Origin: Psychromonas ossibalaenae ATCC BAA-1528
Lineage (GTDB): Bacteria; Pseudomonadota; Gammaproteobacteria; Enterobacterales; Psychromonadaceae
Direction: 5' to 3'
NCBI RefSeq assembly: GCF_000381745.1
Contig: NZ_KB906982.1
Location: 1 to 64,000 of the forward strand
DNA length: 64,000 bases
In this document: one piece after another, positions 12,176-47,192 of the stretch
How positions within the stretch are numbered: the first letter of the stretch is position 1
Layout: each line of letters starts with the position of its first letter
The notes under the pieces: model-generated
Seen by the model: only the letters and a program-made list of their open reading frames with translations
What the model was told of the DNA's origin: nothing
The model's database searches: none
Position numbers and translations under genes: made by a program

Positions 12176-12202
12176 GTTTAAAACTATATTTCTGATATAA
12201 AA

Positions 12203-12238
12203 AAGACCGCCTGTTATATATTCATAACAGGCGGTCTT
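12203..12238 (+). terminator. Rho-independent terminator after lipA
   Basis: A perfect 15-bp stem (AAGACCGCCTGTTAT and its complement) with a 6-base loop and a following T tract. A-runs on the other side allow it to act in both directions. Confidence 0.95.
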
Positions 12239-12253
12239 TTTGTATGTTCGCTT

Positions 12254-12415
12254 ATACCAATTCCATTAATTAGGTGCTCTATTTAGGCGTAGGAAAAATG
12301 GATGGAAGCAAGGCGTTGATTGCCGTAACTAGTTATTCTAATTACAAAATCAAGAGCGAAGCTAGCGTCCATTTTAACAAGAATCAATAAATATAAAATT
12401 TAGTAGATTTGGTAT
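12254..12415. repeat. MITE-like inverted-repeat element
   Basis: The segment is bounded by ATACCAA at 12254 and its complement TTGGTAT ending at 12415. Inside is a long imperfect inverted repeat: AAAATGGA near 12296 pairs with TCCATTTT at 12368-12375, with further partial pairing inwards to AACTAGTT near the centre. It has no reading frame of note and sits in the spacer between two convergent units. Similar hairpin repeats starting with a TATACCAATTCC-like end are, from memory, common between genes of Shewanella, Psychromonas and relatives; that is recall, not a search. Confidence 0.65.
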
Positions 12416-12424
12416 TAAACAAGC

Positions 12425-13495
12425 TTAAACTGCGTCGCCGGCCTCATTAAAAATAAGAATATTAGACTCGTTAAAACCTATCGTTAAGGGATCCCCTTTA
12501 CGGTACTTTAACTGCTTTGATGACTTTAGTTTTACATTAACAGAAGCTTCAGACAGATCGGCATAGATTAAGGTTGAATCTCCCTGTAACTCGCTCAGCG
12601 TTGCATCTGCTGTTAAGGTAAAATCATTCTCCTCATTTAATCTAAGGTGCTCAGGACGTAAACCGATAAACAGTTGCTCACCGTCAGAAAGCGCCGCATG
12701 CTCCTGTTTAAGCTGAATAGGCGCTTGTCCTGCAATACTGATCACACCACCTTTACTGTATTGTGCCGGAATAATATTAATAGTTGGTGTACCGATAAAT
12801 TCAGCCACAAAAATATTTTTAGGTGAATTATATAACTCAATCGGTGTGCCGACCTGTTCAATATTACCTTTATTCAACACCACAATACGGTCTGCCAGCG
12901 TCATAGCCTCAACCTGATCATGGGTAACATAAATCATGGTAGTATCTAACTTTTCGTGTAGCTGGCTGATTTCCTGACGCATCTGTACACGCAGTGATGC
13001 ATCAAGATTAGAAAGCGGCTCATCAAATAGAAATACTTTCGGCTGCTGGACAATAGAACGTCCGATTGCCACTCGCTGTCTTTGACCACCCGACAAGTTT
13101 TGCGGTAGTCTCTCAAGCATGGTATCAAGTTGTAGGATTTTACTCGCATTCGCAACACGCTTTTTAATTTCTTCTGCTGGTGTTTTAATATTTTTTAAAC
13201 CGAATTCAAGATTTTCTCTCACTGACATATGCGGATACAATGCATACGACTGGAAAACCATAGACAGGCCTCGACTACCGGCAGGCAGTTCAGTGACATC
13301 TTTTCCGCCAATAGAAACTGTGCCTGAAGTAATATCTTCTAGGCCGGCGATCATACGCAGCAGAGTAGACTTGCCGCAGCCGGACGGACCGACCAGTACC
13401 AAAAATTCACCTGAGTTAATGTCTAAACTCAAATCTTCAATAGTAGGCGTTTTATCGTAATATTTTTTTATGTTGCGTAATGTTAAATTGCTCAT
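12425..13495 (-). CDS. Sugar ABC transporter ATPase (MalK/UgpC/YcjV type)
   Basis: ATP-binding subunit that would power the sugar importer encoded at 16288-19271. The 356-residue protein has Walker [10 protein letters not shown] (36-44), the signature LSGGQ (134-138), Walker B VFLFDE (154-159) and a C-terminal regulatory OB-type domain with the LRPEHLRL motif of the MalK/UgpC group. It is separated from the permease genes and lies on the opposite strand, just beyond the phosphomannomutase gene, probably in one transcript with it and the regulator. Stand-alone ATPases of this class often serve several importers. Confidence 0.93.
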
Positions 13496-13522
13496 GCTAA
13501 GTAAATCCTATGATAAGTTAAA

Positions 13523-14887
13523 TTATGAATTAATAATGACTAAAAGTTCTTGTGTTTTCTGTTCAACAAGCGCTTGTGAGCCTCTCGATTCAACATTTAG
13601 ACGGATCACGGCTTCTGTGTTTGAGCTGCGCAGATTGAAACGCCAATCTGTAAACTCCATACTCAAACCATCGATATGGGTCACATTCAACGCAGCAGCC
13701 TGATACGCATCAGAAATAGCGGCAATAGTCTTTTCAGGATCACTGACTAACGTATTGATTTCACCAGAAATAGGATAAAGCTCGACACGCTGCTCAACAA
13801 GTTTTGATAATACTTCATTTTTCTTACTGATTAATTCAATTACCAGAAGCCATGGGATCATACCGCTGTCGCAGTAGCCAAAATCTCGGAAATAATGATG
13901 CGCACTCATTTCACCGCCGTAGACAGCATTCTCTTTACGCATTCTTTCTTTAATAAATGCATGTCCGGTTTTCGATTCAATTGCAGTACCAGTCAAAGAA
14001 GCAACCAGATCCTGGGTATTCCAGGTAAGCCTTGGGTCATGAATTATTTTTTCACCAGCATGCTGCAGCAGGAAAGTATTCGCCAGCAGACCAACGATAT
14101 AATAGCCTTCAATAAAGGCCGCATTTTCATCGAAAAAGAAACAGCGGTCAAAATCCCCGTCCCAGGCGATACCCAAATCAGCACCGTGACTTAAAATTGC
14201 CTTCTGTGTATCTGTTCTGTTTTCCAACAGCATCGGATTAGGGATACCGTTCGGGAAAGAGCTGTCAGGCTCATGATTAACTTTAATAAACTCAACCGCA
14301 ACACCTGTTTGTTTAAACCTTTCTTCAATCGCATCAATAGTTGGACCCGCAGCGCCGTTACCAGCGTTAACGACAATTTTCAACGGTTTTAACTGTTCAG
14401 CATTTATGTAACTCAGAAGGTGGCTGACATAAGCGTCACGGTTAGATAAAAGCTTGTACTGACCTTTATTTTCTACCGGTGCAAAATTATTTTCTTCAGC
14501 CAGCGCTTTAATAGCATTTAAGCCGGTATCACCACTGATCGGTTTAGCATCTTCACGTACCAGCTTCATACCGTTAAAATTAATCGGATTATGGCTGGCT
14601 GTCACTTCGATGCCGCCGTCTAAGTTTAATGAACGCGTCGCGTAATATATCTCTTCTGTACCAACCATACCGATATCAATAACATCACAGCCGCCGTCCA
14701 TTAAACCTTTTGCTAGTGCCTGCTTAAAAAGCTCTGAAGTCTTGCGAATATCGCCGCCTACCGCAACGGTTTTAGGTTTTAACCACTCGCAGTACGCACG
14801 CCCGATACGGTAAACGATATCTTCATTTAAATTTTCGCCTATTTCACCGCGAATATCGTAAGCTTTAAAACATGTCAAATTTGTCAT
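13523..14887 (-). CDS. Phosphomannomutase (alpha-phosphohexomutase family)
   Basis: Converts mannose 1-phosphate and mannose 6-phosphate (possibly also the glucose forms) in the cytoplasm. The 454-residue protein has the phosphoserine loop TASHNP (Ser98), the magnesium loop DGDFDR, the sugar-specificity loop GGEMSAHH and the C-terminal phosphate-binding RSSNTEA. GEMSAHH is the form seen in phosphomannomutase/phosphoglucomutase enzymes of the ManB/CpsG group. The start at 14887 ([14 protein letters not shown]) is family-like; the frame is open further upstream into the regulator gene but not conserved. Its place in this locus points to breakdown of mannose 1-phosphate rather than polysaccharide synthesis. 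Confidence 0.93.
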
Positions 14888-14903
14888 TATTTTCCTCTTA
14901 TTT

Positions 14904-15938
14904 TTAAGTTGATTCTCTAACAATAAGTTCGAAGTCAAGATCGTGATGAACAACTGACTTGTGATCCAGCAGCAGCTGGATTGCAACTTCTCCCTTTTGT
15001 TTTGGATTTTGAGATACTGTAGTTAGCGGAATAACCGGCTGAACAACGGTAATATCATCAAAACCGGTAATAGCAATATCCTGTGGAATTTTCATTCCCT
15101 GAGCCAGACAATACTCAGCGGCGCCGTAAGCAAAACGGTCCGAAAAACAAACTAATGCGGTAATATCCGGGTTATGCTTCAAAATAGCTTCTGCTGCTAA
15201 TCTGCCGTGCTCTTCATCGTGATCAATTTCATACAGACAGCAGTTTTCAAGGGAGATATCAGCTTGTGAAAAGCTCTCTAAACAACCACTGAAACGCGTC
15301 ATCATCACATCATTATCACCGCTTACCGGCTTATTTAAGGTACTCAGGCCACAGCTGTTCTGCTGCGACGGGAAAGAGATAATACCGAACTGCCTATGTC
15401 CTTTGCTGAGCAGGTGCTCACAAACGGTCTGCATCGCTTTAAAATTATCGATTGAGACACTGGAGTGCTGCTCAGTGACAAAATCGGTTGTCACAATCGG
15501 TACGCCTTTGGCAATTGCTTTTTTAATAACCATATCCTGATTGTGAGTCGCATTTAAAATATAACCGTCAACTAATGCGTTTAAGGCATTAGATTTAGAT
15601 TCCTGCTCATTTTTTAGCGGGATAAGTACAATATTGACAGTCGCTTTCTCACACTGAGAGGCAATACCAGCCATTAACTGCAGATCGTGCTGATCAGTAA
15701 ATACATAACTAAGTGAATCATTAAAAATGACACCTATTGACCCAGACTTTCCGGTTCTTAAACTGCGCCCAATATTATCGGGGCCATGGAAGTTAACTGA
15801 CTCCGCATATTCAAAAATACGTTTCTTAAGACTAACCGAGAGTTTTTCCGGGCGGTTATAAGCATTCGAAACCGTGGTATGCGTGACTCCCAAGTCTTTT
15901 GCTATCGACTTCAACGTTACCTTTTTTACTTTCGTCAT
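14904..15938 (-). CDS. LacI-family transcriptional regulator of the carbohydrate locus
   Basis: A 344-residue repressor-type protein: N-terminal helix-turn-helix ([28 protein letters not shown] broken as [14 protein letters not shown] and AYNRPEKLS) with the hinge helix, and a periplasmic-binding-protein-like sugar domain with the [13 protein letters not shown] and ITGFDD motifs. It is divergent from the binding-protein gene, and the 350-bp spacer has six near-identical palindromes with the central CG typical of LacI-family operators, so it most likely controls both sides and itself. The ATG at 15938 is preferred over the TTG at 15953. The inducer is unknown. Confidence 0.92.
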
Positions 15939-16011
15939 TTTTATATCGTCCAATATATTGATCGTAAAATTACGTTATTGTGATTAATATTTTTATAAAT
16001 ACTAACCTGGA

Positions 16012-16196
16012 GTTTATCGTTAAACACGCTGTATTACCACTTTGTTTCACGATAAACACAAAATGTGCTCATTACTATATTTAACGATAATCAAAACTGT
16101 TTTTTGTGACGTGTTTATCGTTAAACAAAATAATTCCCGCTCTCTTGTTTATCGTTAAACAAAAAGTGATTTTTTGTGACGTGTTTATCGTTAAAC
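16012..16196. promoter_or_regulatory. Cluster of six LacI-type operators
   Basis: Four exact copies of GTTTATCGTTAAAC lie at 16012-16025, 16113-16126, 16147-16160 and 16183-16196. Two weaker copies are GTTTCACGATAAAC at 16044-16057 and ATTTAACGATAATC at 16079-16092. The general form is GTTTAwCGwTAAAC. The copies at 16113 and 16183 share a preceding TTTTTTGTGACGT block, so a 70-bp unit was duplicated; TGTGA there could also be a CRP half-site. Spacings between neighbouring centres are 32, 35, 34, 34 and 36 bp, close to three helical turns. The rest of the spacer 15939-16287 must hold both promoters, which were not resolved. Confidence 0.85.
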
Positions 16197-16287
16197 AATA
16201 CTTATTTCGTGTTAGATTAAAAATAGAAAGTATGTGAGCTACCCTATATTTGTGTTTATAGATATTAAATTAAAGAGGATTACAGTC

Positions 16288-17562
16288 ATGAGACTTAGTA
16301 ATGTAAAAGTAACAATTGCCGGTTTATTTTCGTTGGCACTAGTCGCAGGGTGCGGCTCAGAAAAAGAGGAAAGCGCTTCACTGAAAATGTGGGTCGCACC
16401 TAATGCAGCACAGGAAGTATTCTGGACAGCAGTGACTAGTGAGTGGAATAGTATCCCTGGTAATAAACCCGTTGAATTCACTACCATCCCTGCCACGGGA
16501 AGTTCTGAAGAAGCGGTAATGAGCGCACTGGCATCGGGTACTGAACCAGATATTACCACTAATATATTCAGTGGTTTTGCAGCTCAACTGCACGGACTTA
16601 ACCAGATTGTTGATTTCTCTAAACTCGAAGGTTACAGCGAACTTATCGAACAACGTCAAATGCACAATATCATGACTTCCTGGGATTATGACGGTGCAAA
16701 ACCGGTTATTCCAATTTATGTTAACCCGGTAATGTACTGGTGGCGTACAGATATCCTGAAAGAAAACGGTTTTGATAAAATCCCGACCTCTTATGATGAA
16801 ATTTATGCACTTTCAGAAAAATTTACCATTCCGAATAAACAGTACGCTGTTCAAGTCGCAGCCGGCAAAAACTGGTGGGACCGCTGGTTTGATTTCGTTA
16901 CTTTCTATTACGCTCAGTCTGATGGTATGCAGTACGTTGAAAACAACCAGGCGACCTATAACAATGAAGCCGGTTTAGAAGTATTAGGCTTTATAGATAA
17001 GATGTTTGCCAACAAATGGGCAAATTATGACTTTGGTGCCAATGATCCACTGACCACTGGTGAGTTAATTGGTGCGGTAAGAGGACCTTGGGACATCTCT
17101 CGTTATGAGCAGCAGCATCCGGAAATATTAAAAACTATCAAATTAGGACCAATCCCGACTAAAGACGGTGCATCAGATAAGAAAACAGCCACTTTTGCAG
17201 ACAGCAAAGGCTTGGTTTTATTCAAGTCATCTGAGATGCAGGATGATGCCTGGAAGTTCATCAACTGGGTTTATTCTAATCCTAAGTTTGATTTAGAGTG
17301 GATAAAAGCAACCAGCCAGCCTCCAGCCCGCGGTGATTTAACCAGTAACCCGATCTTTAGTGATTATTATAAAAACAATCCGTTAGCAAAAGGTTTTGCT
17401 GAATATGTGGATGTTGCGATCCCTTCTGCTTCTACTTCTGAAACGGTTGCAGTACAGCGCAGCATGACCCAGATGCTGGAGCGCCTTATCTTTACTGACA
17501 GTGAAATTAAGAACTCAGTAGATACGTCGGTTGAAGAAGTTAACAAGCTATTAGGTAAATAA
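16288..17562 (+). CDS. Sugar ABC transporter substrate-binding lipoprotein (SBP family 1)
   Basis: Binds the sugar in the periplasm and hands it to the two permeases encoded next. The start at 16288, behind AAAGAGGA, gives a lipoprotein signal (MRLSNVKVTIAGLFSLALVAGC) with the lipobox LVAGC; the 18 codons before it in the open frame are not signal-like. The 424-residue product has the MalE/YcjN fold pattern, with KDGASDKKTATFADSKGLVLF and VYSNPKFDLEW typical of the family and many tryptophans for sugar stacking (WWRTD, NWWDRWF). It is the first gene behind the operator cluster. Confidence 0.93.
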   Translation: MRLSNVKVTIAGLFSLALVAGCGSEKEESASLKMWVAPNAAQEVFWTAVTSEWNSIPGNKPVEFTTIPATGSSEEAVMSALASGTEPDITTNIFSGFAAQLHGLNQIVDFSKLEGYSELIEQRQMHNIMTSWDYDGAKPVIPIYVNPVMYWWRTDILKENGFDKIPTSYDEIYALSEKFTIPNKQYAVQVAAGKNWWDRWFDFVTFYYAQSDGMQYVENNQATYNNEAGLEVLGFIDKMFANKWANYDFGANDPLTTGELIGAVRGPWDISRYEQQHPEILKTIKLGPIPTKDGASDKKTATFADSKGLVLFKSSEMQDDAWKFINWVYSNPKFDLEWIKATSQPPARGDLTSNPIFSDYYKNNPLAKGFAEYVDVAIPSASTSETVAVQRSMTQMLERLIFTDSEIKNSVDTSVEEVNKLLGK

Positions 17563-17563
17563 C

Positions 17564-18442
17564 ATGATTAAAGGACTCAATATAAAAGAATCAGCGCAGG
17601 GAGGGCTGATTGCCTCGACATATCTGGGTTATTCCTTAGTTTTCTGGATATTTCCTTTTGTCTGGCTGCTGATTTTAACCTTTTCCGACTGGCAGTTTAT
17701 CGGTACACCAAGCTTTAGCGGCCTGGATAACTTTTTTAATGTTATTCAGGATCCACTGTTCTGGAAATCGATGAAAAATGTATTTCGTTTCCTGATGTAC
17801 TATCTGCCGATGGTGATTTTTGCCTCCCTGTTCTTTGCTTTAGGGTTAAAGAAAATTAAATACGGCAAAAGCTTTATCGCACTCAGCTTCTTGTTAGCTA
17901 ACGTGTCATCCGGGGTAGCTTACTCAATTGTATTTTCTAAGCTGTTCAGTGATACAGGGCCGATCAATGATTTTATGAACTCTGTGTTTGGTTTTACCAT
18001 TCCCTGGTTTACCAATCCTGATTTTGCGATGTTTTCTATCGCCATTGTTATCACCTGGAAGTTTGTCGGCTATTACGGCCTGATATTCTATTCCGGTCTG
18101 GTTTCTATCCCTAAAGAGATTTATGACGCGGCAGAGCTCGATCAGACAGGTCCGGTTAAACGCCTGTTCAAAATCACACTGCCGCTGATGAATGCACAGA
18201 TAATTATGGTGGTCGTGCTGGCAATCACAGTGGCGTTCGGGATATTTACCGAACCTTATCTGATAACCGGCGGCGGTCCGTTAGAAAGTACTACGACTCC
18301 GATGGTTGTTATGTATGAAGCAGCTTTCCAGCGTATGGAACCAAGCTGGGCGGCAACCATGTCCATTTTCGTTGCGATCATCAGCTTTACCCTTATCTGG
18401 GTATTAAGAAAGCTTTTCGAAAAAAATATAGAGATTGTTTAA
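17564..18442 (+). CDS. Sugar ABC transporter permease (MalF/YcjO type)
   Basis: First inner-membrane permease of the importer. The 292-residue protein has six predicted membrane helices and the EAA loop EIYDAAELDQTGPVKRLFKITLP split around AAELDQTG, which docks on the ATPase. It starts two bases after the stop of the binding-protein gene and overlaps nothing upstream, so it is translationally coupled. Lacks the extra N-terminal helices of enteric MalF and so is closer to UgpA/YcjO. Confidence 0.93.
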   Translation: MIKGLNIKESAQGGLIASTYLGYSLVFWIFPFVWLLILTFSDWQFIGTPSFSGLDNFFNVIQDPLFWKSMKNVFRFLMYYLPMVIFASLFFALGLKKIKYGKSFIALSFLLANVSSGVAYSIVFSKLFSDTGPINDFMNSVFGFTIPWFTNPDFAMFSIAIVITWKFVGYYGLIFYSGLVSIPKEIYDAAELDQTGPVKRLFKITLPLMNAQIIMVVVLAITVAFGIFTEPYLITGGGPLESTTTPMVVMYEAAFQRMEPSWAATMSIFVAIISFTLIWVLRKLFEKNIEIV

Positions 18443-18443
18443 T

Positions 18444-19271
18444 ATGAAAAAGATGTCACTTTCGAGTATGGCTATTCATGCAGTTATGCTGCTGTTAGCC
18501 GTATCATGGTTATACCCTTACATCTGGATGGTGCTCTCTTCACTCAAAGATACTGCCGATATCTATTCGACAGGTTTATTTGAAGGCCCGTTTTCATTTG
18601 ATAATTATATCTTTCTTTTTGACGGCTCTGAACGTGTAGAAAGGCCGTTTTTAAGAACGTTATTTAATTCATTCTTTATTTCAATCACCGTTACTTTAAG
18701 CGTAACAATCAGTTCTGCTTTTATCGGTTACGCACTGGCGAAAATGAAATTCAGAGGACAGGGGCTGTTTAAAAACTTTCTGATTATTCAGATGGTTTTT
18801 CCGGCATTTATGTTCATTATTCCGCAGTTCCTGCTTATCCGGGAATTTAATTTAATCAACACCTACAGTGCTTTGATCATTCCTTTCCTAATGAGCGGCT
18901 GGGGCATATTCATGGTGTCGCAGAGTTTTAAAGGTACGCCGAATGACTATATTCACGCAGCTAAATTGGACCACGCAAATATGTGGAAAATACTAGTGCA
19001 CGTGATGATGCCGCTGAACAAATCGATTCTCGCTATTGTTGCACTATTCACCTTTACCGGTGTCTGGGACAACTTCCTATGGCCGTTAATCGTTATGCAG
19101 GAAGTAGAGAAGATGCCTTTATCAGTACTGCTGGCCAACTTCAGTAAATCATACGGTGTATATGTCGGCCCGGTTCTGGCCGGTTCAGTGGTACAGACTC
19201 TGCCGATTGTGGTCCTGTTTATTGCATTCAGAAAGTACTTCCTGCAGGGAATGTCACTCTCTTTGAAATAG
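18444..19271 (+). CDS. Sugar ABC transporter permease (MalG/YcjP type)
   Basis: Second permease of the importer, about 275 residues with six membrane segments. The EAA loop is present as YIHAAKLDHANMWKILVHVMMPL (key part AAKLDHA). The ATG at 18444 lies 1 base after the stop codon of the preceding permease; a TTG at 18435 inside that gene is a less likely start. The C-terminal YFLQGMSLSLK ending is typical of MalG-like permeases (…G...GAVKG). Works with the ATPase at 12425-13495 by inference. Confidence 0.93.
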   Translation: MKKMSLSSMAIHAVMLLLAVSWLYPYIWMVLSSLKDTADIYSTGLFEGPFSFDNYIFLFDGSERVERPFLRTLFNSFFISITVTLSVTISSAFIGYALAKMKFRGQGLFKNFLIIQMVFPAFMFIIPQFLLIREFNLINTYSALIIPFLMSGWGIFMVSQSFKGTPNDYIHAAKLDHANMWKILVHVMMPLNKSILAIVALFTFTGVWDNFLWPLIVMQEVEKMPLSVLLANFSKSYGVYVGPVLAGSVVQTLPIVVLFIAFRKYFLQGMSLSLK

Positions 19272-19280
19272 GATGGTCAT

Positions 19281-20852: not shown

Positions 20853-21913
20853 AAATTACACGTTATATTAACAACCCGATTATTTCACCTAAAGATGTAA
20901 AACCTTCACAGCCCGGCTTTAAAGTTGACTGTGTATTTAATGCCGGTGTTATTAAAACAGACACTGAAGTAATACTGCTGCTGCGTATTGCTGAAAGTAT
21001 TATTTCCGACTCGAATGAGCAGATCAAAGTACCTCTTTTGATTGAAGATAACGGCCAGTGGCTGCCGCAGATTAAAATATTTGATCTCAATGATCCGCTT
21101 TACTGTTTTGATGATCCACGTGAGATCAAGCTTGTTGCCGATCCGAGTGTGGTTTTTCTAACATCAATGTCACACCTGCGTATCGCACGAAGCAGTGACG
21201 GTATTAACTTCGATATTTCCGATAGTGCGTTTATTGCACCGGACAACAAATATGAGCAGTTCGGCTGTGAAGATGCACGTATTACACAAATCGACGACCT
21301 GTATTACATCAACTACTCGGCAGTTTCTCCTTTTGGTATCACTACCGCGCTGGCTTCTACCACTGATTTTAACAGTGTGACTAAACACGGCATTTTATTC
21401 AGCCCGGATAATCGCGACGTATGCTTATTTCCTGAAAAGATAGACGGAAAATATATGGCACTGCACCGCCCTGCACCGAAACATTTTGGTAAACCTGAAA
21501 TATGGATAACCGAATCACCGGATATGGTGCATTGGGGGGCACATCAGCACCTGCTAGGCAGCTCTGAAGATGACTGGGACAGCCTTAAACTCGGCGGCGG
21601 CGCACCTATGATAAAAACAGCTAAAGGCTGGCTGCAGATTTATCACGGTGTTGATGCACAGCAGCGTTACTGCTTAGGTGCACTACTTCTTGACCTGGAG
21701 AATCCGACTAAAATATTAGCAAAATCTGCCACACCGCTGCTTGAGCCGCAGGCCCCTTACGAGCTTGAAGGTTTCTTCGGTAATGTTGTATTTACCTGTG
21801 GTGCTTATATTGATGAAAATATTTTAAATATTTATTACGGCGCGGCTGATGAGCATATGGCACTTGCACAGATCAGCGTTGATGAACTTTGGAACCACCT
21901 ACAACTTAACTAA
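20849..21913 (+). CDS. GH130 beta-mannoside phosphorylase/hydrolase family enzyme
   Basis: A 354-residue five-bladed beta-propeller of the GH130 type. Known members phosphorolyse beta-1,2- or beta-1,4-linked mannosides to mannose 1-phosphate, a few are hydrolases. Visible motifs are the catalytic CEDARIT (Asp142), MALHRP with Arg207, and KLGGGAPMIKT followed by IYHGV with His266. Arg207 and His266 are at positions that in characterised phosphorylases contact phosphate, which favours phosphorolysis. The start ATG overlaps the stop of the GH13 gene by 4 bp. There is no signal peptide, so it works in the cytoplasm. With phosphomannomutase and ManA in the same locus, mannose 1-phosphate is the likely product; the linkage attacked is unknown. 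Confidence 0.88.
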   Translation: MKITRYINNPIISPKDVKPSQPGFKVDCVFNAGVIKTDTEVILLLRIAESIISDSNEQIKVPLLIEDNGQWLPQIKIFDLNDPLYCFDDPREIKLVADPSVVFLTSMSHLRIARSSDGINFDISDSAFIAPDNKYEQFGCEDARITQIDDLYYINYSAVSPFGITTALASTTDFNSVTKHGILFSPDNRDVCLFPEKIDGKYMALHRPAPKHFGKPEIWITESPDMVHWGAHQHLLGSSEDDWDSLKLGGGAPMIKTAKGWLQIYHGVDAQQRYCLGALLLDLENPTKILAKSATPLLEPQAPYELEGFFGNVVFTCGAYIDENILNIYYGAADEHMALAQISVDELWNHLQLN

Positions 21914-21922
21914 GGCTTAGTC

Positions 21923-22855
21923 ATGTTAGCAATAAAAAAACCAGTACAAACATTATACTCTGAATTCAAAGCGACCTGCACCTCAACAGCAAAGGCGGAA
22001 AAAATTCAGTTTATCGGCGCACAGGATAATGATGTATATAACATAGCGGCTCCCTTTGAGCTGGACGGCAGGCAGATTATTGCCGGCCGTGTTGAAGCGC
22101 GAGATTCAGAACATTCAACGGTAATGTTTTTTGAACAAACAGCAGATAATCAGTTTACCCTGATCAGCGATGCACCAACATTTGAGCTGCAGGACCCCTT
22201 CTATACCTATATCAATGGTGAGTTTATTTTCGGCGGCGTTGAGATAAGCCCGGATCCTGAGAATGCAGATGCCCTTATCTGGAAAACATGCTTTTACCGC
22301 GGCCGCGATATTTATTCATTAACGCATTTTGTTGACGGCCCGGCGCGCATGAAAGATATCCGTTTATGCGCTACTGCCGATAATAAAATAATGGTCTTTA
22401 CCCGCCCGCAGGGTGAAATCGGCGGACGCGGTACTATCGGTGTGACTCAAATTGATACGCTTGAAGATCTGTCCATTGAAGTCATTAATAATGCAAAACT
22501 GCTTGATGATCACTTTGAAGAGCAGGACTGGGGAGGTGTTAATGCCGGTTATCTGCAGGCAGACGGAAAAATTGCATTATTAGCACATGTAGCCTCTTTT
22601 GATGATAACGGCGGCCGTCATTACTACCCGTCGACTTTTCTATTTGATCCTGCGGATCACAGTTATTCAAGCATGAGAATTATCGCCGAAAGAAGCCAGT
22701 TTAAGGCAGGGGAAAGTAAACGCGCCGATCTAATCGATGTCGTATTTTCCGGCGGCCTTATCCACATTAAAGATGACTTATACCGTTTATATGTAGGTAC
22801 AAGTGATTGTGAAGCTCAGTGGATTGAAATCAATCAACCTTTTTTACAACAGTAA
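21923..22855 (+). CDS. DUF1861 family protein, probable propeller-fold glycoside enzyme
   Basis: A 310-residue cytoplasmic protein that resembles the DUF1861 (MTP-1) family, a group related to five-bladed propeller glycosidases and often encoded with GH130 enzymes. Features include GRVEARDSEHSTVMFF, LQDPFYTYINGEFIFGGVEI (key QDPF), FTRPQGEIGGRGTIG and DLIDVVFSGGL, with acidic residues in propeller-like positions. It starts 9 bp after the GH130 gene. Function is not established for the family; a second mannoside-acting enzyme or a partner for GH130 is an inference from this and similar neighbourhoods. Confidence 0.75.
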   Translation: MLAIKKPVQTLYSEFKATCTSTAKAEKIQFIGAQDNDVYNIAAPFELDGRQIIAGRVEARDSEHSTVMFFEQTADNQFTLISDAPTFELQDPFYTYINGEFIFGGVEISPDPENADALIWKTCFYRGRDIYSLTHFVDGPARMKDIRLCATADNKIMVFTRPQGEIGGRGTIGVTQIDTLEDLSIEVINNAKLLDDHFEEQDWGGVNAGYLQADGKIALLAHVASFDDNGGRHYYPSTFLFDPADHSYSSMRIIAERSQFKAGESKRADLIDVVFSGGLIHIKDDLYRLYVGTSDCEAQWIEINQPFLQQ

Positions 22856-22863
22856 AAATAGAC

Positions 22864-22886
22864 CTGCAGCTGCTGTCTGCAGCTGT
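22864..22886 (+). other. Hairpin between the DUF1861 gene and the porin gene
   Basis: CAGCTGC at 22867-22873 pairs with GCAGCTG at 22879-22885 across a 5-base loop. No strong T tract follows (TGTTTAAC), so this is more likely an RNA-processing or partial attenuation element inside the operon than a full terminator. Confidence 0.45.
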
Positions 22887-22917
22887 GTTTAACAAAAACT
22901 AATAAACAGGAAAAAAC

Positions 22918-24057
22918 ATGAAAACTAAAAATATTTTATTATCTTGCTTATGTCTGTCCCTGGCGCCGACCGTGTGGGCCGAAGACTTCAGCATCAGTGA
23001 AACTGACGATCAGCTTCTTGCCAAAAATAATGTATATTCAGGAAGCCGCATTAAAGTAAAAGAGGAGAACGGAGAAGTACTTAACGCTAATTTATCAGAA
23101 GGCGTTATCAGCTTAGGTAATGATAAATACATGCGTGTCGATTATGACCAAGTGCGCATCGAGGAAGATAAGAAATTCAAGCTGCATGGCAACTGGTTAA
23201 CGGAATACAAAGTTGAGCACTTTAAAAACGAAGGCACCAGCACCAGCTCTCGCCCTGTACATGAATGGGTTTTTGCAGACGGGCGTGTTAATTTCGGCGA
23301 CAGCGGTTTTAATTTAGGTTATATCTTAAAGAAAGTTTCCTTTGAAAATGACTTAAGAGACGGCAGCGGCGATGTTAATGATTTTCGTATGAATGAAATG
23401 GAGCTTCGTCCTGCTTACGCGAAAAGCATCGGTAAACATTGGTTTATGCTTGAAGCCACCTATCTGGGTAAAACGGGTTATGAAAAGATGGGTAGTGGTA
23501 ACGACAGCTACCTGATTGGTGGTGACGGTTATGGTATCCGTCCTTATTACAGTTATCAATTCAACGATGACTTTGGTATTAATACCGATCTTAAATGGCT
23601 GACTGAAGATAAAAGTGCCGACGGCGCTGATGCGGGTAAATTTGTGTTTTACGAAGCACTGTTTAATGTCCGTTATAATATCTTAGATAACCTGACCGCC
23701 GGTGTTGAATTTTTCCATAAAGACGGGGACAACTACGATAATGACGGCGTTAAAGGTTCAAATCTTACTGAAACAGAAATTCGCCCTTGGGTATCATGGC
23801 GCTTAGATCAGCATAATCTATTCTTTAAGCTTGAACCACAGAAAAAAACGATTACCGAAGCTGACGGACGCGTTTCTTATGAGTCAGAGGCAATGAAATA
23901 TATCGTTAATTACAGCTATCCAATAACGCCTTATGTCTACTTTGTCGCAGAATATTTCTACCGCACAGAAACAGATAAAAAAGTTGACGGATCAGCATAC
24001 ACAGGTCCGGATGGTGAAACCAACTTCGGTAAAGTAGGCCTTAACTTCGTCTTCTAA
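22918..24057 (+). CDS. OmpG-like outer-membrane porin
   Basis: A 379-residue outer-membrane beta-barrel with a signal peptide ending at VWAED. The mature protein shows alternating hydrophobic strands with aromatic girdles and ends in the terminal Phe (GKVGLNFVF) needed for barrel insertion. The central and C-terminal strands (WLTEYKVEHF, HEWVFADGRVNFG, EIRPWVSWRLDQHNLFFKLEP in part) resemble the OmpG porin family, monomeric channels for oligosaccharides. In E. coli ompG lies next to a LacI/ABC/GH cluster (ycj), the same arrangement as here, which supports the role of outer-membrane entry for the imported sugar. Confidence 0.82.
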   Translation: MKTKNILLSCLCLSLAPTVWAEDFSISETDDQLLAKNNVYSGSRIKVKEENGEVLNANLSEGVISLGNDKYMRVDYDQVRIEEDKKFKLHGNWLTEYKVEHFKNEGTSTSSRPVHEWVFADGRVNFGDSGFNLGYILKKVSFENDLRDGSGDVNDFRMNEMELRPAYAKSIGKHWFMLEATYLGKTGYEKMGSGNDSYLIGGDGYGIRPYYSYQFNDDFGINTDLKWLTEDKSADGADAGKFVFYEALFNVRYNILDNLTAGVEFFHKDGDNYDNDGVKGSNLTETEIRPWVSWRLDQHNLFFKLEPQKKTITEADGRVSYESEAMKYIVNYSYPITPYVYFVAEYFYRTETDKKVDGSAYTGPDGETNFGKVGLNFVF

Positions 24058-24074
24058 TTTTTAATCAACACCAT

Positions 24075-24120
24075 GTTTAACGATAAACAAGCAATTATAA
24101 AATGCTTTTTATCGTTAAAC
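24075..24120. promoter_or_regulatory. Second operator pair of the LacI-family regulator
   Basis: GTTTAACGATAAAC at 24075-24088 and TTTTATCGTTAAAC at 24107-24120 match the six sites upstream of the binding-protein gene, one mismatch in the second. Centre spacing is 32 bp. They sit between the porin stop and the ATG at 24150, implying a separate regulated promoter for the secreted enzyme. Confidence 0.82.
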
Positions 24121-24149
24121 TGCAGTTAAAAAGACAACAGGAAATTAAT

Positions 24150-25430
24150 ATGAAAATTTTCAAAAATTTATTCGCTATAGCGGCATTAACAATCTCATTT
24201 GCGGCCAGTGCCAGCCTGGTTAACCTGCAGCACCTCGACCATTTATACGAGGAACGCACAATTGAGAGTGGAGAAAAACTCGGGCTTATTCATATCTACA
24301 GCGAATACCCTGATTATGAATGGGTAAAAGATCCCCTTGAAGGCGTATCGGCCCTTGATGATATGGCCAGAGCAATTGTGGTCTATTCTGATGCCTATCA
24401 GCAGACAAAAGAGAAAGCACATTTTGAGAAAATGACCAGCCTAATTAATTCGATTCTTTTCCTGCATTCTGATAACGGTTATTTCAATAACTTTATCTAC
24501 CCTGACAACACGGTGAATACAACTTATAAAACCAGCTTAGCAAATGCAAACTGGTGGACCTGGCGCGCAATCTGGGCGCTTTCATACACCTATGAACAAG
24601 TGCTTGCCGACAATAAAGAGTTAGCAGAGAAGATGCATACGGTATTATTTAAAAGCATTGACACTACCTACGAAGGTTTTAACTTTGAGCAGACAGTCAC
24701 TAAGCAGAACGGTTTTGATGTACCTGAATGGCTGCCAAGTAACGGTGCCGATCAGGCGTCAGTTTTGCTTTTAGGTTTGACTAAAGCTTACCAGATCGCC
24801 CCAAGTGAAAAAATTGCTAAGCTGATGAAGTCATTAGCTGACGGTATCATGCTGATGCAGGTTAAGAATGTTGAATCACCAATATACGGTGCGATGCTGA
24901 GCTGGAAAAACATCTGGCATGCTTACGGAAACAGCCAGTCTTATGCATTATTAGAAGCCGGTATGGCACTGGAAGACAGAGATATGGTTAAAGCGGCCTT
25001 TGAAGAGCTGGATCATTTCTACCCGTACCTTATTGAACAGGGTCACCTGAACTGGTTCAGTGCAGAGCAGAAAGGTAAAGAGATTAAATTCTTAGAAAAA
25101 GATCAGTTTGCCCAGATTGCTTACGGCTTCCGTCCGATGATCTTTGCTAGTTTAAGAGCTTTTGAAATTTCTCGTGACAGCCGCTATATTGATCAGGCAG
25201 TAAAACTGGCAATGTGGTTCTTTAAAGATAATGCGGGCGCTATTCAGATGTACTCACCAGAAACAGGACGCGGCTATGACGGTTTGAATTCAGCGACAGA
25301 ATATAACCGTAACTCTGGTGCAGAGTCTACTATTGAAGCTCTGCTTTCCTTAGCTGCGATTGAGAAGTCTCCTAAAGCTAAAAAATTATTACAAGAAAAA
25401 CTAAAAGCCTTAAAAGTTAAAGCAAAATAA
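24150..25430 (+). CDS. Secreted putative (alpha/alpha)-barrel carbohydrate-active protein
   Basis: A 426-residue protein with a signal peptide (MKIFKNLFAIAALTISFAASA); the ATG at 24150 follows AGGAAATTAAT and is chosen over an upstream ATG whose residues are hydrophilic. The mature part is almost all helical with repeated aromatic and acidic helices (LANANWWTWRAIWALSY, LSWKNIWHAYGNSQ, LAMWFFKDNAG) and a C-terminal motif NRNSGAESTIEALL. This pattern is that of six-hairpin ((alpha/alpha)6) glycoside hydrolase-like proteins. I do not recognise a named family. Its own pair of operators and its place after the porin suggest periplasmic trimming of the sugar before import. Confidence 0.65.
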   Translation: MKIFKNLFAIAALTISFAASASLVNLQHLDHLYEERTIESGEKLGLIHIYSEYPDYEWVKDPLEGVSALDDMARAIVVYSDAYQQTKEKAHFEKMTSLINSILFLHSDNGYFNNFIYPDNTVNTTYKTSLANANWWTWRAIWALSYTYEQVLADNKELAEKMHTVLFKSIDTTYEGFNFEQTVTKQNGFDVPEWLPSNGADQASVLLLGLTKAYQIAPSEKIAKLMKSLADGIMLMQVKNVESPIYGAMLSWKNIWHAYGNSQSYALLEAGMALEDRDMVKAAFEELDHFYPYLIEQGHLNWFSAEQKGKEIKFLEKDQFAQIAYGFRPMIFASLRAFEISRDSRYIDQAVKLAMWFFKDNAGAIQMYSPETGRGYDGLNSATEYNRNSGAESTIEALLSLAAIEKSPKAKKLLQEKLKALKVKAK

Positions 25431-25456
25431 TTTTTACCTTTCTTTGTTGTTATAAA

Positions 25457-25496
25457 AATCGGGACCGAGACAGTCAACCTGTCTTCTGTCCCGATT
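25457..25496 (+). terminator. Terminator after the secreted enzyme gene
   Basis: Outer stem AATCGGGAC / GTCCCGATT encloses an inner hairpin GACAG-TCAAC-CTGTC, followed by ATTATTAATTTT. It separates the operator-controlled genes from manA. Confidence 0.75.
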
Positions 25497-25595
25497 ATTA
25501 ATTTTAACCGTAACAAACGAGCCCCCTATAACTTTCAATGGACTGAATAAATCATTTAAGCTGAGAAACAGCCTGCTTATCAGAGACACAAGACC

Positions 25596-26786
25596 ATGAC
25601 AGACCATCTATTCAAATTAAACAATGTAATACAAAACTATGCCTGGGGAAGCGATTCATCTATCCATTCTTTATTTAATATCCCTAATCCAGATCAGCAG
25701 CCGCAGGCTGAACTATGGATGGGAGCCCATCCGAACGGCTGTTCCAAAAATCAGCAGGGAACCCTGCTTAGTCAGATTATTGATCAAGATCCGGCTGCGG
25801 TATTAGGCGCCTACACACAAAAAAGATATAGCTCTCTGCCCTTCCTGCTAAAAATACTAGCAGCAGAAAAACCATTATCAATTCAGGTTCATCCAAGCAA
25901 AACCATGGCTGAGCAGGGATTTAAATTAGAAAACTCACAAAATATTCCTGTCGATGCGCCAGATCGAAACTATAAAGATGCGAACCATAAACCAGAGCTT
26001 GTATACGCTGTCACCTTTTACCAGGCGATGAATGGTTTTCGTAAAATAGATGAAATTATCAGCCTGTTTGAACAAGCAGACTGTAACACCCTTGCAGATG
26101 CCTTAAAATGTTTGAAAGAAAATCCGGGTGAACAGCATCTTCAGAACTTCTTTGCCGTAATAATGAATCTGAATGCGTCAGATAAAGCTCAGGCCATAGA
26201 GGAGCTTATCAAGAACCTAGATACAAAAGCACAGACACATAAAGCTAAAGAAGCCTTTCAGCTCGTTGCTCAGTTTTATCAGGACTATCCGGGTGATATA
26301 GGGTTATTTTCACCGCTGATGCTGAATATCATTGAATTAGCACCGGGTGAGGCGATGTTTTTAGATGCTCAAACGCCGCATGCTTATATCCATGGTACCG
26401 GTATAGAAATTATGGCCAGCTCAGATAACGTACTTCGTGCAGGATTAACACCAAAACATATCGATGTGGATGAGTTAATTAAAAATACCAAATTCCAGCC
26501 CAGTACATTTGATGACCTGAAAATACAGGCTCAATGTTTTGACCATAAAAAAGTATTCCATGTTCCCGTTGATGACTTTAACTTTGAAGTCCACAGCGTC
26601 ACCTCCGAGGGGCATGACGAGTTTGTCAGAAGTCCGGAAATACTGCTTTGTCTAGCGGGTAATGTAACCATCTCAACAGCGCAGCAGAGTATCAAGCTGC
26701 AGCGCGGCGAATCCGTTTTTATCTGCGCAGCCGCTCACTCTTATCAGTGTCATGGCGAGGGACAATTTGTTAGAGCCTTTAATTAA
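25596..26786 (+). CDS. manA: Mannose-6-phosphate isomerase, class I
   Basis: Zinc enzyme that interconverts mannose 6-phosphate and fructose 6-phosphate. The 396-residue product has the type I motifs: VIQNYAWGSDSSI near the N-terminus, AELWMGAHPNG, LSIQVHPSK with zinc ligands, DANHKPELVYA, and FLDAQTPHAYIHGTGIEIMASSDNVLRAGLTPKHID (key part GTGIEIMASSDNVLRAGLT). Length is normal. It stands behind its own terminator-bounded spacer and completes the path from mannose 1-phosphate made by GH130 through phosphomannomutase into glycolysis. Confidence 0.97.
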   Translation: MTDHLFKLNNVIQNYAWGSDSSIHSLFNIPNPDQQPQAELWMGAHPNGCSKNQQGTLLSQIIDQDPAAVLGAYTQKRYSSLPFLLKILAAEKPLSIQVHPSKTMAEQGFKLENSQNIPVDAPDRNYKDANHKPELVYAVTFYQAMNGFRKIDEIISLFEQADCNTLADALKCLKENPGEQHLQNFFAVIMNLNASDKAQAIEELIKNLDTKAQTHKAKEAFQLVAQFYQDYPGDIGLFSPLMLNIIELAPGEAMFLDAQTPHAYIHGTGIEIMASSDNVLRAGLTPKHIDVDELIKNTKFQPSTFDDLKIQAQCFDHKKVFHVPVDDFNFEVHSVTSEGHDEFVRSPEILLCLAGNVTISTAQQSIKLQRGESVFICAAAHSYQCHGEGQFVRAFN

Positions 26787-26811
26787 TCCAGCACCGCTGT
26801 AGTTTTAAATG

Positions 26812-26833
26812 AAAAGCGCGTTTCAGCGCTTTT
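26812..26833 (+). terminator. Terminator-like hairpin between manA and the kinase gene
   Basis: AAAAGCGC / GCGCTTTT with a 6-base loop and a short T run. The next gene starts 20 bp later, so it may be only a partial terminator. Confidence 0.7.
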
Positions 26834-26853
26834 TACTTTTTCAGGAATAACCG

Positions 26854-27840
26854 ATGACAGCTAAAACACACCTTTCAGAAAACGAAATAACAACCATTCT
26901 CAGCAATTATGATTTAGGTGAATTGATAAATTCACAGCTTTTTTTAACGGGAACTGTACAGACTAATATCTTTATGCGTACGACAAAAGGCGCCTTTGTC
27001 TTAAGACATTATCAAAACCGCTCAAACGAAGCGGTACAGTTTGAAACTCACCTGTGCGCCTATCTCAGCAGCCGTCATTATCCCTGCCCGGCCCCTTTTA
27101 AAAACCACAGGGGAGAATACACCGGGCTGCACAACAAAAAGCCCTATGTTATTTTTGAGTTTATGCCCGGAGAGCATATAGAAAAACCAACTGAGAAGCA
27201 GAAAGATCAGCTCATTCAAAAAGTGGCTGAACTACAGATTATCACCAGAGACTACCAGCCCTGCGCTCTGGAGCACAGGTTCAATTACGATATTAACAGC
27301 TGTAGAGAGAAAGCAGCTGAGCAGGCGGCCGAAATCAACACCATCAATGCGGCGCTAAAATTAGAATGGTTTGAAAAAGAACTGGCTGAACTGCAGCTGC
27401 CGGACAGCTTAGCCAAAGGGATCTGTCACAATGATTTTCATTTCACCAATGTGCTTTACCATCATGGTAAATTTAATGCCCTGATTGACTTTGATGATGC
27501 TAACTACACCTATCTAGCATTTGATCTGATCTGGTTAATTGATCCTTTTAAAGCGGCTTTTAATCATGACAACTGGTATAACTGCAAAATCGACAGCAGC
27601 CAGCTGGACTTTAAAGAGGCCAGAGATACTATCGCCAAATATAAGAGCTATAGACCCTTAGATAACAGTGAAAAACAGCATCTGTTTGATTTATACAAAC
27701 TAAGTATTCTATTTGACTGTATCTGGTATTTTGCAAGGGGTGATGTGAACAGCTTTTATGAAAAGGAAAAAATAAACTTAATTAACTCACTGGGAAGAGA
27801 AGGTTTTTATCAGGCGCTGTTTACAGAAAATAAACAATAA
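26854..27840 (+). CDS. APH/choline-kinase-fold phosphotransferase, substrate unknown
   Basis: A 328-residue kinase-like protein of the aminoglycoside phosphotransferase/homoserine kinase II fold. The glycine-poor N-lobe (TGTVQTNIFMRTTKGAFVLRHY, key FVLRHY lysine/arginine strand) is followed by YVIFEFMPGEH, the catalytic loop ICHNDFHFTNVLYH with Asp in HNDFHFTN, and the metal-binding IDFDDANY. Family members phosphorylate aminoglycosides, choline, homoserine, or sugars (maltokinase, methylthioribose kinase). Because it follows manA in a mannoside locus, a hexose kinase for sugar freed by hydrolysis is a reasonable guess, but there is no direct evidence. Little else in the locus would phosphorylate free sugar. 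Confidence 0.8.
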   Translation: MTAKTHLSENEITTILSNYDLGELINSQLFLTGTVQTNIFMRTTKGAFVLRHYQNRSNEAVQFETHLCAYLSSRHYPCPAPFKNHRGEYTGLHNKKPYVIFEFMPGEHIEKPTEKQKDQLIQKVAELQIITRDYQPCALEHRFNYDINSCREKAAEQAAEINTINAALKLEWFEKELAELQLPDSLAKGICHNDFHFTNVLYHHGKFNALIDFDDANYTYLAFDLIWLIDPFKAAFNHDNWYNCKIDSSQLDFKEARDTIAKYKSYRPLDNSEKQHLFDLYKLSILFDCIWYFARGDVNSFYEKEKINLINSLGREGFYQALFTENKQ

Positions 27841-27878
27841 AAATTAAAATATTCAAGAATAGCCTCAGCAAGCAGCAG

Positions 27879-27899
27879 GGGGAGCCGAAAAAGCTCCCC
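27879..27899. terminator. Hairpin between the kinase gene and mshG
   Basis: GGGGAGC / GCTCCCC with a 7-base loop lies between convergent genes. It lacks a clear T tract on either side, so termination is plausible but not certain. Confidence 0.5.
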
Positions 27900-27907
27900 A
27901 AAATCGT

Positions 27908-46885: not shown

Positions 46886-46992
46886 GGTAGTTCCTTAATA
46901 ATTAATAGTTACCAGAATCAGGGCATAGGGAAGTGCGTTTTCTGTATCTTTCGATTTAGAATACGTAAAAGCAGCGAACAAAAGTCCGCTTT

Positions 46993-47134
46993 ATTCTCTT
47001 CCATCCGGACTCTAACCGTCGGCTCTGGAGTTACACCAGATCTGCTGACCTCAATATGTAAGAAAACATAAAGAGCGCTCGCGGGCTTGCCAAAGGCTTA
47101 CCGCCGGTGGGGAATTTCACCCCGCCCTGAGAAT
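46993..47134 (-). promoter_or_regulatory. FMN riboswitch (RFN element) of ribB
   Basis: On the minus strand the conserved RFN blocks occur in order: TCTCAGGGCGGGGTGAAATT, CCCCACCGGCGGTAAG, AGCCCGCGAGCG, GAGGTCAGCAGATCTGGTG, TCCAGAGCCGACGGTTAGAG and TCCGGATGGAAGAGAA. An alternative pairing AGTCCG (47011-47006) with CGGACT (46988-46983) just after the aptamer is followed by TTTTG and could be part of the switching hairpin. The 108 bp between aptamer and ribB show no other clear element. Confidence 0.96.
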
Positions 47135-47192
47135 TGCTAAGTTAATTTAGCGGGAACATATTAACGTTTAATCAGTCACTTGGGAAACAAAA

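Follow-up and report, generated by a model that had tools for sequence, protein, structure and literature searches.

Gene content and predicted function of an acquired, probably β-1,2-manno-oligosaccharide-degrading island in Psychromonas ossibalaenae

The question raised by this locus is which sugar is served by the block of genes lying between lipA and a msh pilus gene in Psychromonas ossibalaenae ATCC BAA-1528. It was addressed using the first 64,000 nucleotides of contig NZ_KB906982.1 (referred to as the window). The sequence-only reading had proposed mannoside import and phosphorolysis under LacI control, and this outline is supported by homology and by predicted operator-like sites. The block is best explained, with good probability, as a LacI-controlled acquired island that serves to take up β-1,2-manno-oligosaccharides and phosphorolyse them in the cytosol. 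Its features are as follows.

12176..27907, no strand: acquired island, between lipA (end 12175) and an mshG-like msh pilus gene (27908-29128)
12425..13495, minus strand: ABC ATPase, MalK/UgpC type (PF00005 and PF17912; NCBIfam UgpC subfamily, 459 bits vs. cut-off 432)
13523..14887, minus strand: phosphomannomutase/phosphoglucomutase (PF02878/02879/02880/00408; nearest solved structure phosphoglucomutase 5kl0/5bmn, E 1.4e-159)
14904..15953, minus strand: LacI-family regulator (PF00356, 27.6 bits vs. cut-off 27; PF13377)
16011..16197, no strand: six LacI-type operator-like sites (16 bp, TGTTTATCGTTAAACA; at 16011, 16043, 16078, 16112, 16146 and 16182)
16288..17562, plus strand: sugar-binding lipoprotein of ABC importer (PF01547; nearest solved structure 4gqo, Lmo0859, E 2.1e-56)
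17564..18442, plus strand: ABC permease 1 (PF00528)
18435..19271, plus strand: ABC permease 2 (PF00528)
19281..20852, plus strand: GH13, oligo-1,6-glucosidase-like, optional accessory enzyme (PF00128, 422 bits; nearest solved structure 5do8, Lmo0184)
20849..21913, plus strand: GH130, predicted β-1,2-mannobiose phosphorylase (PF04041, 200 bits; nearest solved structure 5b0p, Lin0857, E 1.1e-105)
21923..22855, plus strand: DUF1861/GT108-type enzyme, predicted β-1,2-oligomannan phosphorylase (PF08950, 377 bits vs. cut-off 28)
22918..24057, plus strand: outer-membrane β-barrel, CymA/OmpG-like fold (14 predicted strands, low-confidence model)
24074..24121, no strand: two further operator-like sites (at 24074 and 24106, directly 5' of the exported-protein gene)
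24150..25430, plus strand: exported (α/α)-barrel protein, 7tem/YPO2471 family, predicted extracytoplasmic mannan-active enzyme (7tem, E 1.2e-154)
25596..26786, plus strand: ManA, locus-specific paralogue (TIGR00218, 314 bits vs. cut-off 116)
26854..27840, plus strand: APH-family kinase, candidate for phosphorylating the free mannose that remains after phosphorolysis (PF01636, 102.7 bits)

Every gene named in the sequence-only reading was found, with family support from Pfam and NCBIfam profiles, and the lipoprotein anchor claimed for the binding protein agrees with a lipobox (LVAGC) recognised by eye. The genes span 15.4 kb rather than the 14 kb first given, and both the DUF1861 protein, a predicted second mannan enzyme, and the exported protein had been overlooked. 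The phosphohexomutase ORF was listed to 14986, with a start near 14887 likely by eye; the binding-protein ORF opens at 16234 and has an ATG at 16288; and the exported-protein ORF covers 24102-25430, a start at 24150 being likely because an operator-like site occupies 24106-24121. The gene order recurs in loci of Psychromonas aquimarina, Yersinia and Serratia and is thus not due to chance. No RNA elements were detected in the island at E 0.1.

The GH130 protein was nearest to 5b0p, which ranked first among 18 distinct solved sequences; this enzyme, Lin0857, is a characterised β-1,2-mannobiose phosphorylase (PMC8950772). Residues D142 (the putative catalytic Asp) and N31 were each conserved in 67 of 67 aligned sequences, window included. 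Against the NCBIfam mannobiose phosphorylase model the protein scored 477 bits, below the cut-off of 550, and so could not be named as that equivalog. Candidate phosphate-binding residues, guessed rather than mapped to a phosphate-bound structure, were K/R189 (52 K and 15 R of 67), R207 (67/67) and H266 (66/67). A lysine has been linked to β-1,2 specificity in GH130 (PMC4599007); the window protein has R at 189, where 52 of the 67 have K.

PF08950 (DUF1861) is the family of the Leishmania GT108 enzymes acting on β-1,2-mannan (PMC8950772), and the island protein matched the MPT-1/-2/-4 structures at E 1.7e-45 to 4.1e-44. Its D91, conserved in 74 of 74 sequences including the window, aligns opposite the residue changed in MPT-2 D94N (entry 6q4z), the catalytic role of D94 being taken from the name of that mutant entry. 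Residues R161 and R169 were common to MPT-4 and absent from MPT-1/-2 in alignments with few Leishmania sequences; structure 2b4w has R161 and, at 169, K. The phosphorylases listed among the Leishmania enzymes are MTP3, 4, 6 and 7, that list not including 1 and 2, and the characterised GT108 enzymes listed in the same 2022 review are all from Leishmania mexicana (PMC8950772).

The neighbourhood of DUF1861 was surveyed in the best-scoring 80 of 246 named loci. A GH130 gene co-occurred in 77 of these (within 400 bp in 72) and was missing from three; since these were the best-scoring loci, pairing may be less frequent among distant relatives. GH13 was present in 42 loci and not found in 38. The core of the cassette is therefore the pair of GH130 and GT108, probably for β-1,2-manno-oligosaccharides. 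Bacterial homologues of GT108 had already been noted earlier.

A substrate containing both α-glucose and β-mannose, on which GH13 and GH130 act in turn, overlaps with the preferred explanation and is rather unlikely. GH13 does sit between the permeases and GH130 here and is also present in the Listeria locus discussed below, and its catalytic D195, E249 and D309 columns were invariant in all 42 aligned sequences, window included. However, the enzyme was not found in any of the 10 Sphingomonas-type loci, which retain DUF1861 and GH130, or in one Yersinia similis locus in which the remaining genes of the order are intact. That the sugar must be mixed was not borne out, and as the main reading a mixed sugar was set aside because GH13 is optional among the loci. 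The best NCBIfam match of GH13, TreC, was below cut-off (478 vs. 799). It is also conceivable, though improbable, that the GH130 protein is a hydrolase or acts on some other mannoside (e.g., a mannosylated compatible solute), DUF1861 having drifted to the same substrate. Some GH130 members are hydrolases lacking the phosphate-binding residues and are described as secreted, and a Glu beside the catalytic Asp marks the GH130_NC group, which is tied to hydrolases (PMC4599007). Such a Glu (E141, 67/67) adjoins the putative catalytic Asp here, and the second-nearest solved enzyme is Uhgb_MS, of mixed linkage (PMC8950772). The nearest kin, the phosphorylase Lin0857, nevertheless has the same Glu; the BT3780 hydrolase model gave 72 bits, as against 477 for mannobiose phosphorylase; no signal peptide was seen on the GH130 protein by eye; and a phosphohexomutase is encoded in the same island.

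Least probable is a bacterial mannogen cycle, in which GT108 would use mannose 1-phosphate or GDP-mannose to lay down a store of β-1,2-mannan, GH130 would return it, and the importer would be a side feature. Both transferase and phosphorylase activities are known among the Leishmania relatives (PMC8950772) and phosphorylases are reversible (PMC4264767), but the LacI-type operator-like sites, importer, porin and exported protein point to catabolism, and R161 with R169 places the DUF1861 protein with MPT-4 rather than MPT-1/-2, few Leishmania sequences having been compared.

For the preferred β-1,2-manno-oligosaccharide route, entry would be through the outer-membrane barrel. Its model (mean pLDDT 64) had 14 strands of at least 10 residues, and CymA held ranks 1-8 and OmpG entries fell among ranks 9-14 of its structural neighbours; no Pfam family exceeded its cut-off (best DUF2490, E 0.039; KdgM, E 0.75), and homologues occurred in 6 of the 80 loci. 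The OmpG-like porin of the sequence-only reading is thus upheld for the fold, on a low-confidence model, and not for a Pfam porin family. The exported (α/α)-barrel protein probably cuts or trims the glycan outside the cytoplasm. No Pfam family exceeded its cut-off for this protein; its model (pLDDT 89) matched 7tem at TM 0.93, followed by epimerases, GH76 and GH127 at TM of only about 0.5-0.6, and assignment to any of these was rejected. Entry 7tem is titled merely as a putative exported protein. All 20 Pseudomonadota-type loci carried the gene, as did 2 of the 60 others.

Oligomers would then enter via the ABC importer, which has a MalK-type ATPase of its own; the gene for this ATPase was found in 19 of the 20 Pseudomonadota-type loci. 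Phosphorolysis by the GT108-type and GH130 enzymes would yield α-mannose 1-phosphate, most likely with the longer chains falling to GT108 and mannobiose to GH130; in Thermoanaerobacter, DP≥3 and DP2 are split between two phosphorylases (PMC4264767). Conversion to fructose 6-phosphate would fall to phosphomannomutase and ManA, and the APH-type kinase may add phosphate to the free mannose that remains at the end. The nearest named kin of the kinase were homoserine kinases, below cut-offs (129.5 vs. 271), and 2ppq. This route is supported by the phosphohexomutase and locus-specific ManA in one locus, the proximity of GH130 to Lin0857, the GT108 membership of DUF1861 with its putative catalytic D91 and its MPT-4-like arginines, the frequent pairing, the Thermoanaerobacter division of labour and the recurrent operator-like sites. 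Against it stand the GH130 score, R189 and E141 beside the putative catalytic Asp, the K at 169 of 2b4w, the three loci without GH130, the homoserine kinase kinship, the weak porin model and the lack of any operator before manA or the kinase gene (16-mer scan of the window, ≤3 mismatches).

That scan gave 14 strand matches at 8 places, whereas shuffles gave a mean of 1.05 and at most 5. Six copies precede the binding-protein gene and two the exported-protein gene, and operator-like sites also precede the latter in P. aquimarina; no such palindrome was seen in the porin-exported spacers of Yersinia and Serratia. Related palindromes occur in the LacI spacer of other species, sharing with the eight predicted sites a central CG and a position before putative target genes. 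Of the 13 genomic occurrences of the core TTTAWCGWTAAA, six belong to the island locus; five others were of the TTTATCGTTAAA type, differing from the 16-mer at 1, 2, 3, 3 and >3 positions, and two more were TTTATCGATAAA. A genome-wide regulon was rejected. The regulon looks local because, judged from ORF lists, no sugar locus was recognised next to the outside sites; a possible further member is the one-mismatch site (L090). Lone sites with three mismatches carry little weight, since such words also fall within genes of relatives, e.g., a permease gene in five Yersinia/Serratia loci. Yersinia, Serratia and Listeria are unmentioned in the main text of a LacI regulon survey (PMC4052901), GH130 was absent among the matches listed for literature on LacI regulons in Yersinia/Serratia, and a literature search returned no paper on two or more of Listeria lmo0859, lmo0860, lmo0862, lmo0863 and lmo0864.

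The block is a horizontally acquired island. It occupies the lipA-mshG junction, which is without the cassette in seven related species: three of them have 276, 115 and 774 bp between the two genes (<0.8 kb), a further three have 2.3-2.4 kb, and the last has 6.6 kb; the comparison covered 10 cassette-free related species with a close mshG, lipA lying outside the stretch examined in three. DUF1861 was present in 2 of 24 Psychromonas genomes. The manA and kinase genes fall within the island. ManA had some match in 8 of the 24 genomes, the single other one above 51% being 87% identical and in the other island-bearing species; two further paralogues in the same genome were 47-48% identical. The kinase had an 81% identical counterpart in the second species with the island, a single further match (23%) across the 24 genomes, and a 51% homologue near the cassette of locus L045. 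Recent transfer from Bacillota was rejected, as the DUF1861 tree (74 ORFs, drawn from the window and from 71 of the 80 loci, nine being omitted where the ORF caller gave no DUF1861 ORF in the cluster) joined the window protein to Yersiniaceae (97/82) and kept it separate from the main block of Bacillota sequences. Two diverged second copies branch apart in this tree.

A wider proposal is offered tentatively and is itself doubtful: that bacterial GT108, GH130 and the exported (α/α)-barrel form a complete β-1,2-mannan catabolic system, that the exported 7tem-family protein founds a new β-1,2-mannan-cleaving family, and that the Leishmania mannogen enzymes descended from a phosphorylase that belonged to a bacterial feeding cassette of this kind. 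With GT108 nearly always beside a predicted β-1,2-mannobiose phosphorylase in the 80 loci, a direct and safe means of testing its ancestral activity is available; the 7tem family gains a candidate substrate class, the operator-like sites offer a test of the inducer, and natural β-1,2-mannan sources for soil, plant and marine bacteria become an approachable question.

The E. coli ycj/ompG cluster comprises a LacI regulator, an ABC importer, GH13, GH65 and dehydrogenases. The resemblance drawn to it earlier holds in general make-up, namely LacI regulator, ABC importer, 14-strand porin and GH13, but not for GH65, β-phosphoglucomutase or dehydrogenases, whose Pfam families are absent among the 13 island proteins. 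The suggested Listeria resemblance was supported by a Lin0857-type cassette (L009) with LacI, binding protein, two permeases, GH13, DUF1861, GH130 and a phosphosugar mutase. These core genes are alike (GH130 46.6%, DUF1861 45.6% and GH13 44% identical), whereas DUF1861 and GH130 are in reversed order and the ATPase gene, porin, exported protein and ManA are absent within the stretch examined. Yersinia and Serratia loci (L011-L015) share the order from the ATPase to the exported-protein gene (L012 without GH13), with proteins 48-74% identical, and their LacI spacer contains three operator-like palindromes; they differ in the operator core, ATTTTAACGTTAAAAT, and no ManA or kinase of the Psychromonas island type was found in them. 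The Leishmania GT108 mannosyltransferase/phosphorylases (6q4w, 6q4x, 6q50) share PF08950, about 285 aligned residues and the putative catalytic Asp, but serve eukaryotic reserve metabolism, whereas the bacterial gene adjoins GH130 in an import operon. The Thermoanaerobacter Teth514_1788/1789 cluster differs in that both of its enzymes are GH130 and that its authors proposed it to feed GDP-mannose synthesis; like the predicted island system, it combines an ABC importer with two β-1,2-mannoside phosphorylases (PMC4264767).

The window is contig 16 of the 5.2-Mb genome. ORF listing of the window placed 13 genes within the mannoside interval, and these were assigned by family searches as follows:

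Minus strand: MalK/UgpC-type ATPase
Minus strand: phosphohexomutase
Minus strand: LacI regulator
Plus strand: binding protein
Plus strand: two permeases
19281-20852, plus strand: GH13 enzyme
20849-21913, plus strand: GH130 enzyme
21923-22855, plus strand: DUF1861 protein
22918-24057, plus strand: outer-membrane barrel
24150-25430, plus strand: exported protein
Plus strand: ManA
Plus strand: APH-type kinase

The genes listed in the sequence-only reading were recovered; the DUF1861 and exported proteins were absent from its list. The closest named relative was Psychromonas aquimarina, with 13 syntenic proteins 82-99% identical to those of the window. Elsewhere in the window an FMN riboswitch was located at 46989-47138 (minus strand, 118.6 bits).

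Named genomes were scanned with six DUF1861 proteins, which gave 246 loci with a relative; the best 80 of 246 were retained, and homologues in them were accepted at coverage of at least 0.45 and E of at most 1e-8. DUF1861 was present in 80 of these best 80, GH130 in 77, the permeases in 78 and 75, the binding protein in 68, GH13 in 42, LacI in 39, the ATPase in 27, GH2 in 24 and the exported protein in 22; the window-type phosphomutase (7), porin (6), kinase (2) and window-type ManA (1) were scarcer. DUF1861 and GH130 were separated by no more than 400 bp in 72 loci and by a greater distance in 5, GH130 not being found at these thresholds in 3 of the best 80. Two of the 77 GH130 matches were weaker (30% in L043, 43% in L072). 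DUF1861 occurred in this genome only among 398 sampled Pseudomonadota genomes. GH130 matches of some kind were obtained in 36 genomes of an equal-sized Pseudomonadota sample drawn likewise, with none above 44% identity outside this genome among the matches listed. Given these counts, the GH130 and DUF1861 pair is rare in the phylum and moves as a unit.

Twenty loci were sorted by hand as Pseudomonadota-type, ten of them Sphingomonas-type (L050 included despite its title). The L050 record, titled Bacillus sp. 2B10, holds a Sphingomonas-type cassette, and the assembly is possibly mislabelled or contaminated. GH13 was found in 0/10 Sphingomonas-type, 9/10 other Pseudomonadota-type and 33/60 remaining loci. 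In Yersinia similis (L012) GH13 alone was missing, with the permease and GH130 matches 115 bp apart; this loss is a natural deletion. The empty site lies at L012:8777-8893, and the four other Yersinia/Serratia loci examined retain GH13.

The DUF1861 protein matched PF08950 at 377 bits. Five solved sequences matched it (MPT-1, MPT-2, MPT-2 D94N, MPT-4 and 2b4w; E 1.7e-45 to 7.3e-44), 2b4w being a Leishmania protein as well. Structure-sequence alignment placed D91 opposite the residue altered in the D94N entry (6q4z), and D91 was conserved in 74/74 aligned ORFs (the window and 71 of the 80 loci, including second copies in L026 and L067). These second copies are strongly diverged and adjoin the first. 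In passages of a review (PMC8950772) the Leishmania enzymes, whose substrate is the beta-1,2-mannan mannogen, belong to GT108 and share with GH130 a five-bladed propeller fold and an inverting mechanism. By pairwise alignment, R161 and R169 were common to the window protein and MPT-4; MPT-1 and MPT-2 match at neither position, and 2b4w has R161 with K at 169. In those passages of the review MTP3, 4, 6 and 7 are tabulated as phosphorylases, without 1 or 2. Together, the shared arginines and this table favour phosphorolysis for the window protein, few sequences having been compared.

The nearest solved enzyme to the window GH130 was Lin0857 (E 1.1e-105), followed by Uhgb_MS. Residues N31, R46, E141, D142, R207 and D334 were kept in 66 or 67 of 67 sequences (the window and 66 of the 80 loci), and the protein scored 477 bits, under the NCBIfam equivalog cut-off of 550. 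In an excerpt of PMC4599007, a Glu adjoining the catalytic Asp marks the GH130_NC group, which includes hydrolases; Lin0857 also has this Glu, so it does not discriminate between a GH130_NC hydrolase and a phosphorylase. A second GH130 gene of the same genome (L095:4838-5770, minus strand, contig 32) shows about 41% identity within the aligned region and has a different setting.

The palindrome-like 16-bp word TGTTTATCGTTAAACA was located at eight places in the window at up to 3 mismatches, six in the spacer that separates the LacI and binding-protein genes, the other two directly upstream of the exported-protein gene. Strand matches numbered 14, vs a mean of 1.05 and a maximum of 5 in 100 shuffles. 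At the same tolerance the word was present in the LacI spacers of 10 Sphingomonas-type loci and of L038, L042 and L062 (Gamma- and Alphaproteobacteria MAGs), with a related palindrome in that of L018. The Yersinia/Serratia spacers carried ATTTTAACGTTAAAAT and variants of 1-2 bases, three per locus in five loci; in Yersinia L011 the first two sites are 32 bp apart. Since relatives' genes also contain the TGTTTATCGTTAAACA word at 3 mismatches, the evidence is the clustering in spacers, not the individual sites. Steps between sites were near-constant at 32-36 bp (window 16011-16197 and 24074-24121), and such predicted operator arrays perhaps bind cooperatively.

A close mshG (at least 69%) was found in 12 of 24 Psychromonas genomes, two of which carry the island; the remaining 12 gave mshG matches of 31% or less. 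In seven of the ten cassette-free genomes (the other three having a stretch without lipA), lipA neighbours mshG: three of the gaps measure 276, 115 and 774 bp, another three 2.3-2.4 kb and the last 6.6 kb, with no cassette genes in those seven gaps at E 1e-10. The corresponding distance is 15.7 kb in this genome and 15.5 kb in the second island-bearing species. The ManA and kinase genes lie within the island, and among the 24 genomes exceeded 80% identity only in its two carriers; they came, or are retained, with the cassette, though no operator-like site was found upstream of either in the 64-kb window at up to 3 mismatches. Another type of ManA occurred in 14, and a ROK kinase in 17, of the best 80 of 246 loci, which fits a need to process free mannose and mannose 6-phosphate. 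The role of the APH-type kinase here is a guess, because its nearest named relatives are homoserine kinases, under their cut-offs.

Alongside the observed genes and homologies, conserved catalytic Asp, operator-like sites, insertion site and conserved pairing, a route is proposed in which beta-1,2-manno-oligosaccharides would be imported and phosphorolysed to mannose 1-phosphate, which the phosphomutase and then ManA would convert to fructose 6-phosphate, while the kinase may phosphorylate the last mannose. The GT108-type enzyme may take chains and GH130 mannobiose, by analogy with Thermoanaerobacter, for which an excerpt of PMC4264767 describes separate enzymes for DP of at least 3 and DP2.

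A signal peptide was recognized by eye at the N-terminus of the exported protein and of most homologues. No Pfam family over cut-off was obtained for it or for the two homologues searched. Its predicted model (mean pLDDT 89) aligned with YPO2471 (7tem) at 55% identity and TM 0.93, and remotely with cellobiose 2-epimerases, GH76 and GH127 (TM about 0.5-0.6). Residues D70, D71, R74, W135, W136, H257 and E392 were invariant in 21 sequences. The gene was present in 20/20 Pseudomonadota-type and 2/60 other loci of the best 80, was the first gene downstream of the operator-like site in Sphingomonas-type loci, and occurred in 3 of 394 sampled genomes of the order, both island-bearing Psychromonas among them. 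Most naturally, the protein would be an extracytoplasmic enzyme for the same glycan. In two Bacillota (L059:5550-7313 and L068:5551-7314) the homologue is 587 aa long with an additional C-terminal stretch, and its gene is opposite in strand to GH130-DUF1861.

The porin model had 14 strands (mean pLDDT 64, the first 97 residues unreliable), and its nearest solved folds were CymA of Klebsiella oxytoca, a cyclodextrin channel, and then OmpG. In Sphingomonas hankookensis (L007) a second cassette-type operator-like site (L007:1187-1200) precedes a TonB-dependent receptor gene by about 70 bp; this receptor may stand in for the porin as another outer-membrane route.

Bacterial homologues of GT108 were reportedly noted already by Sernee in 2019, in work on Leishmania. 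None of the matches listed in the open literature described a bacterial GT108 that had been characterised, most subscription journals being outside that scope. DUF1861 appeared in one paper there, and combinations of GT108-related terms from 2019 on returned the review PMC8950772 only. The system is ordinary in outline; one enzyme and one exported family merit assays.
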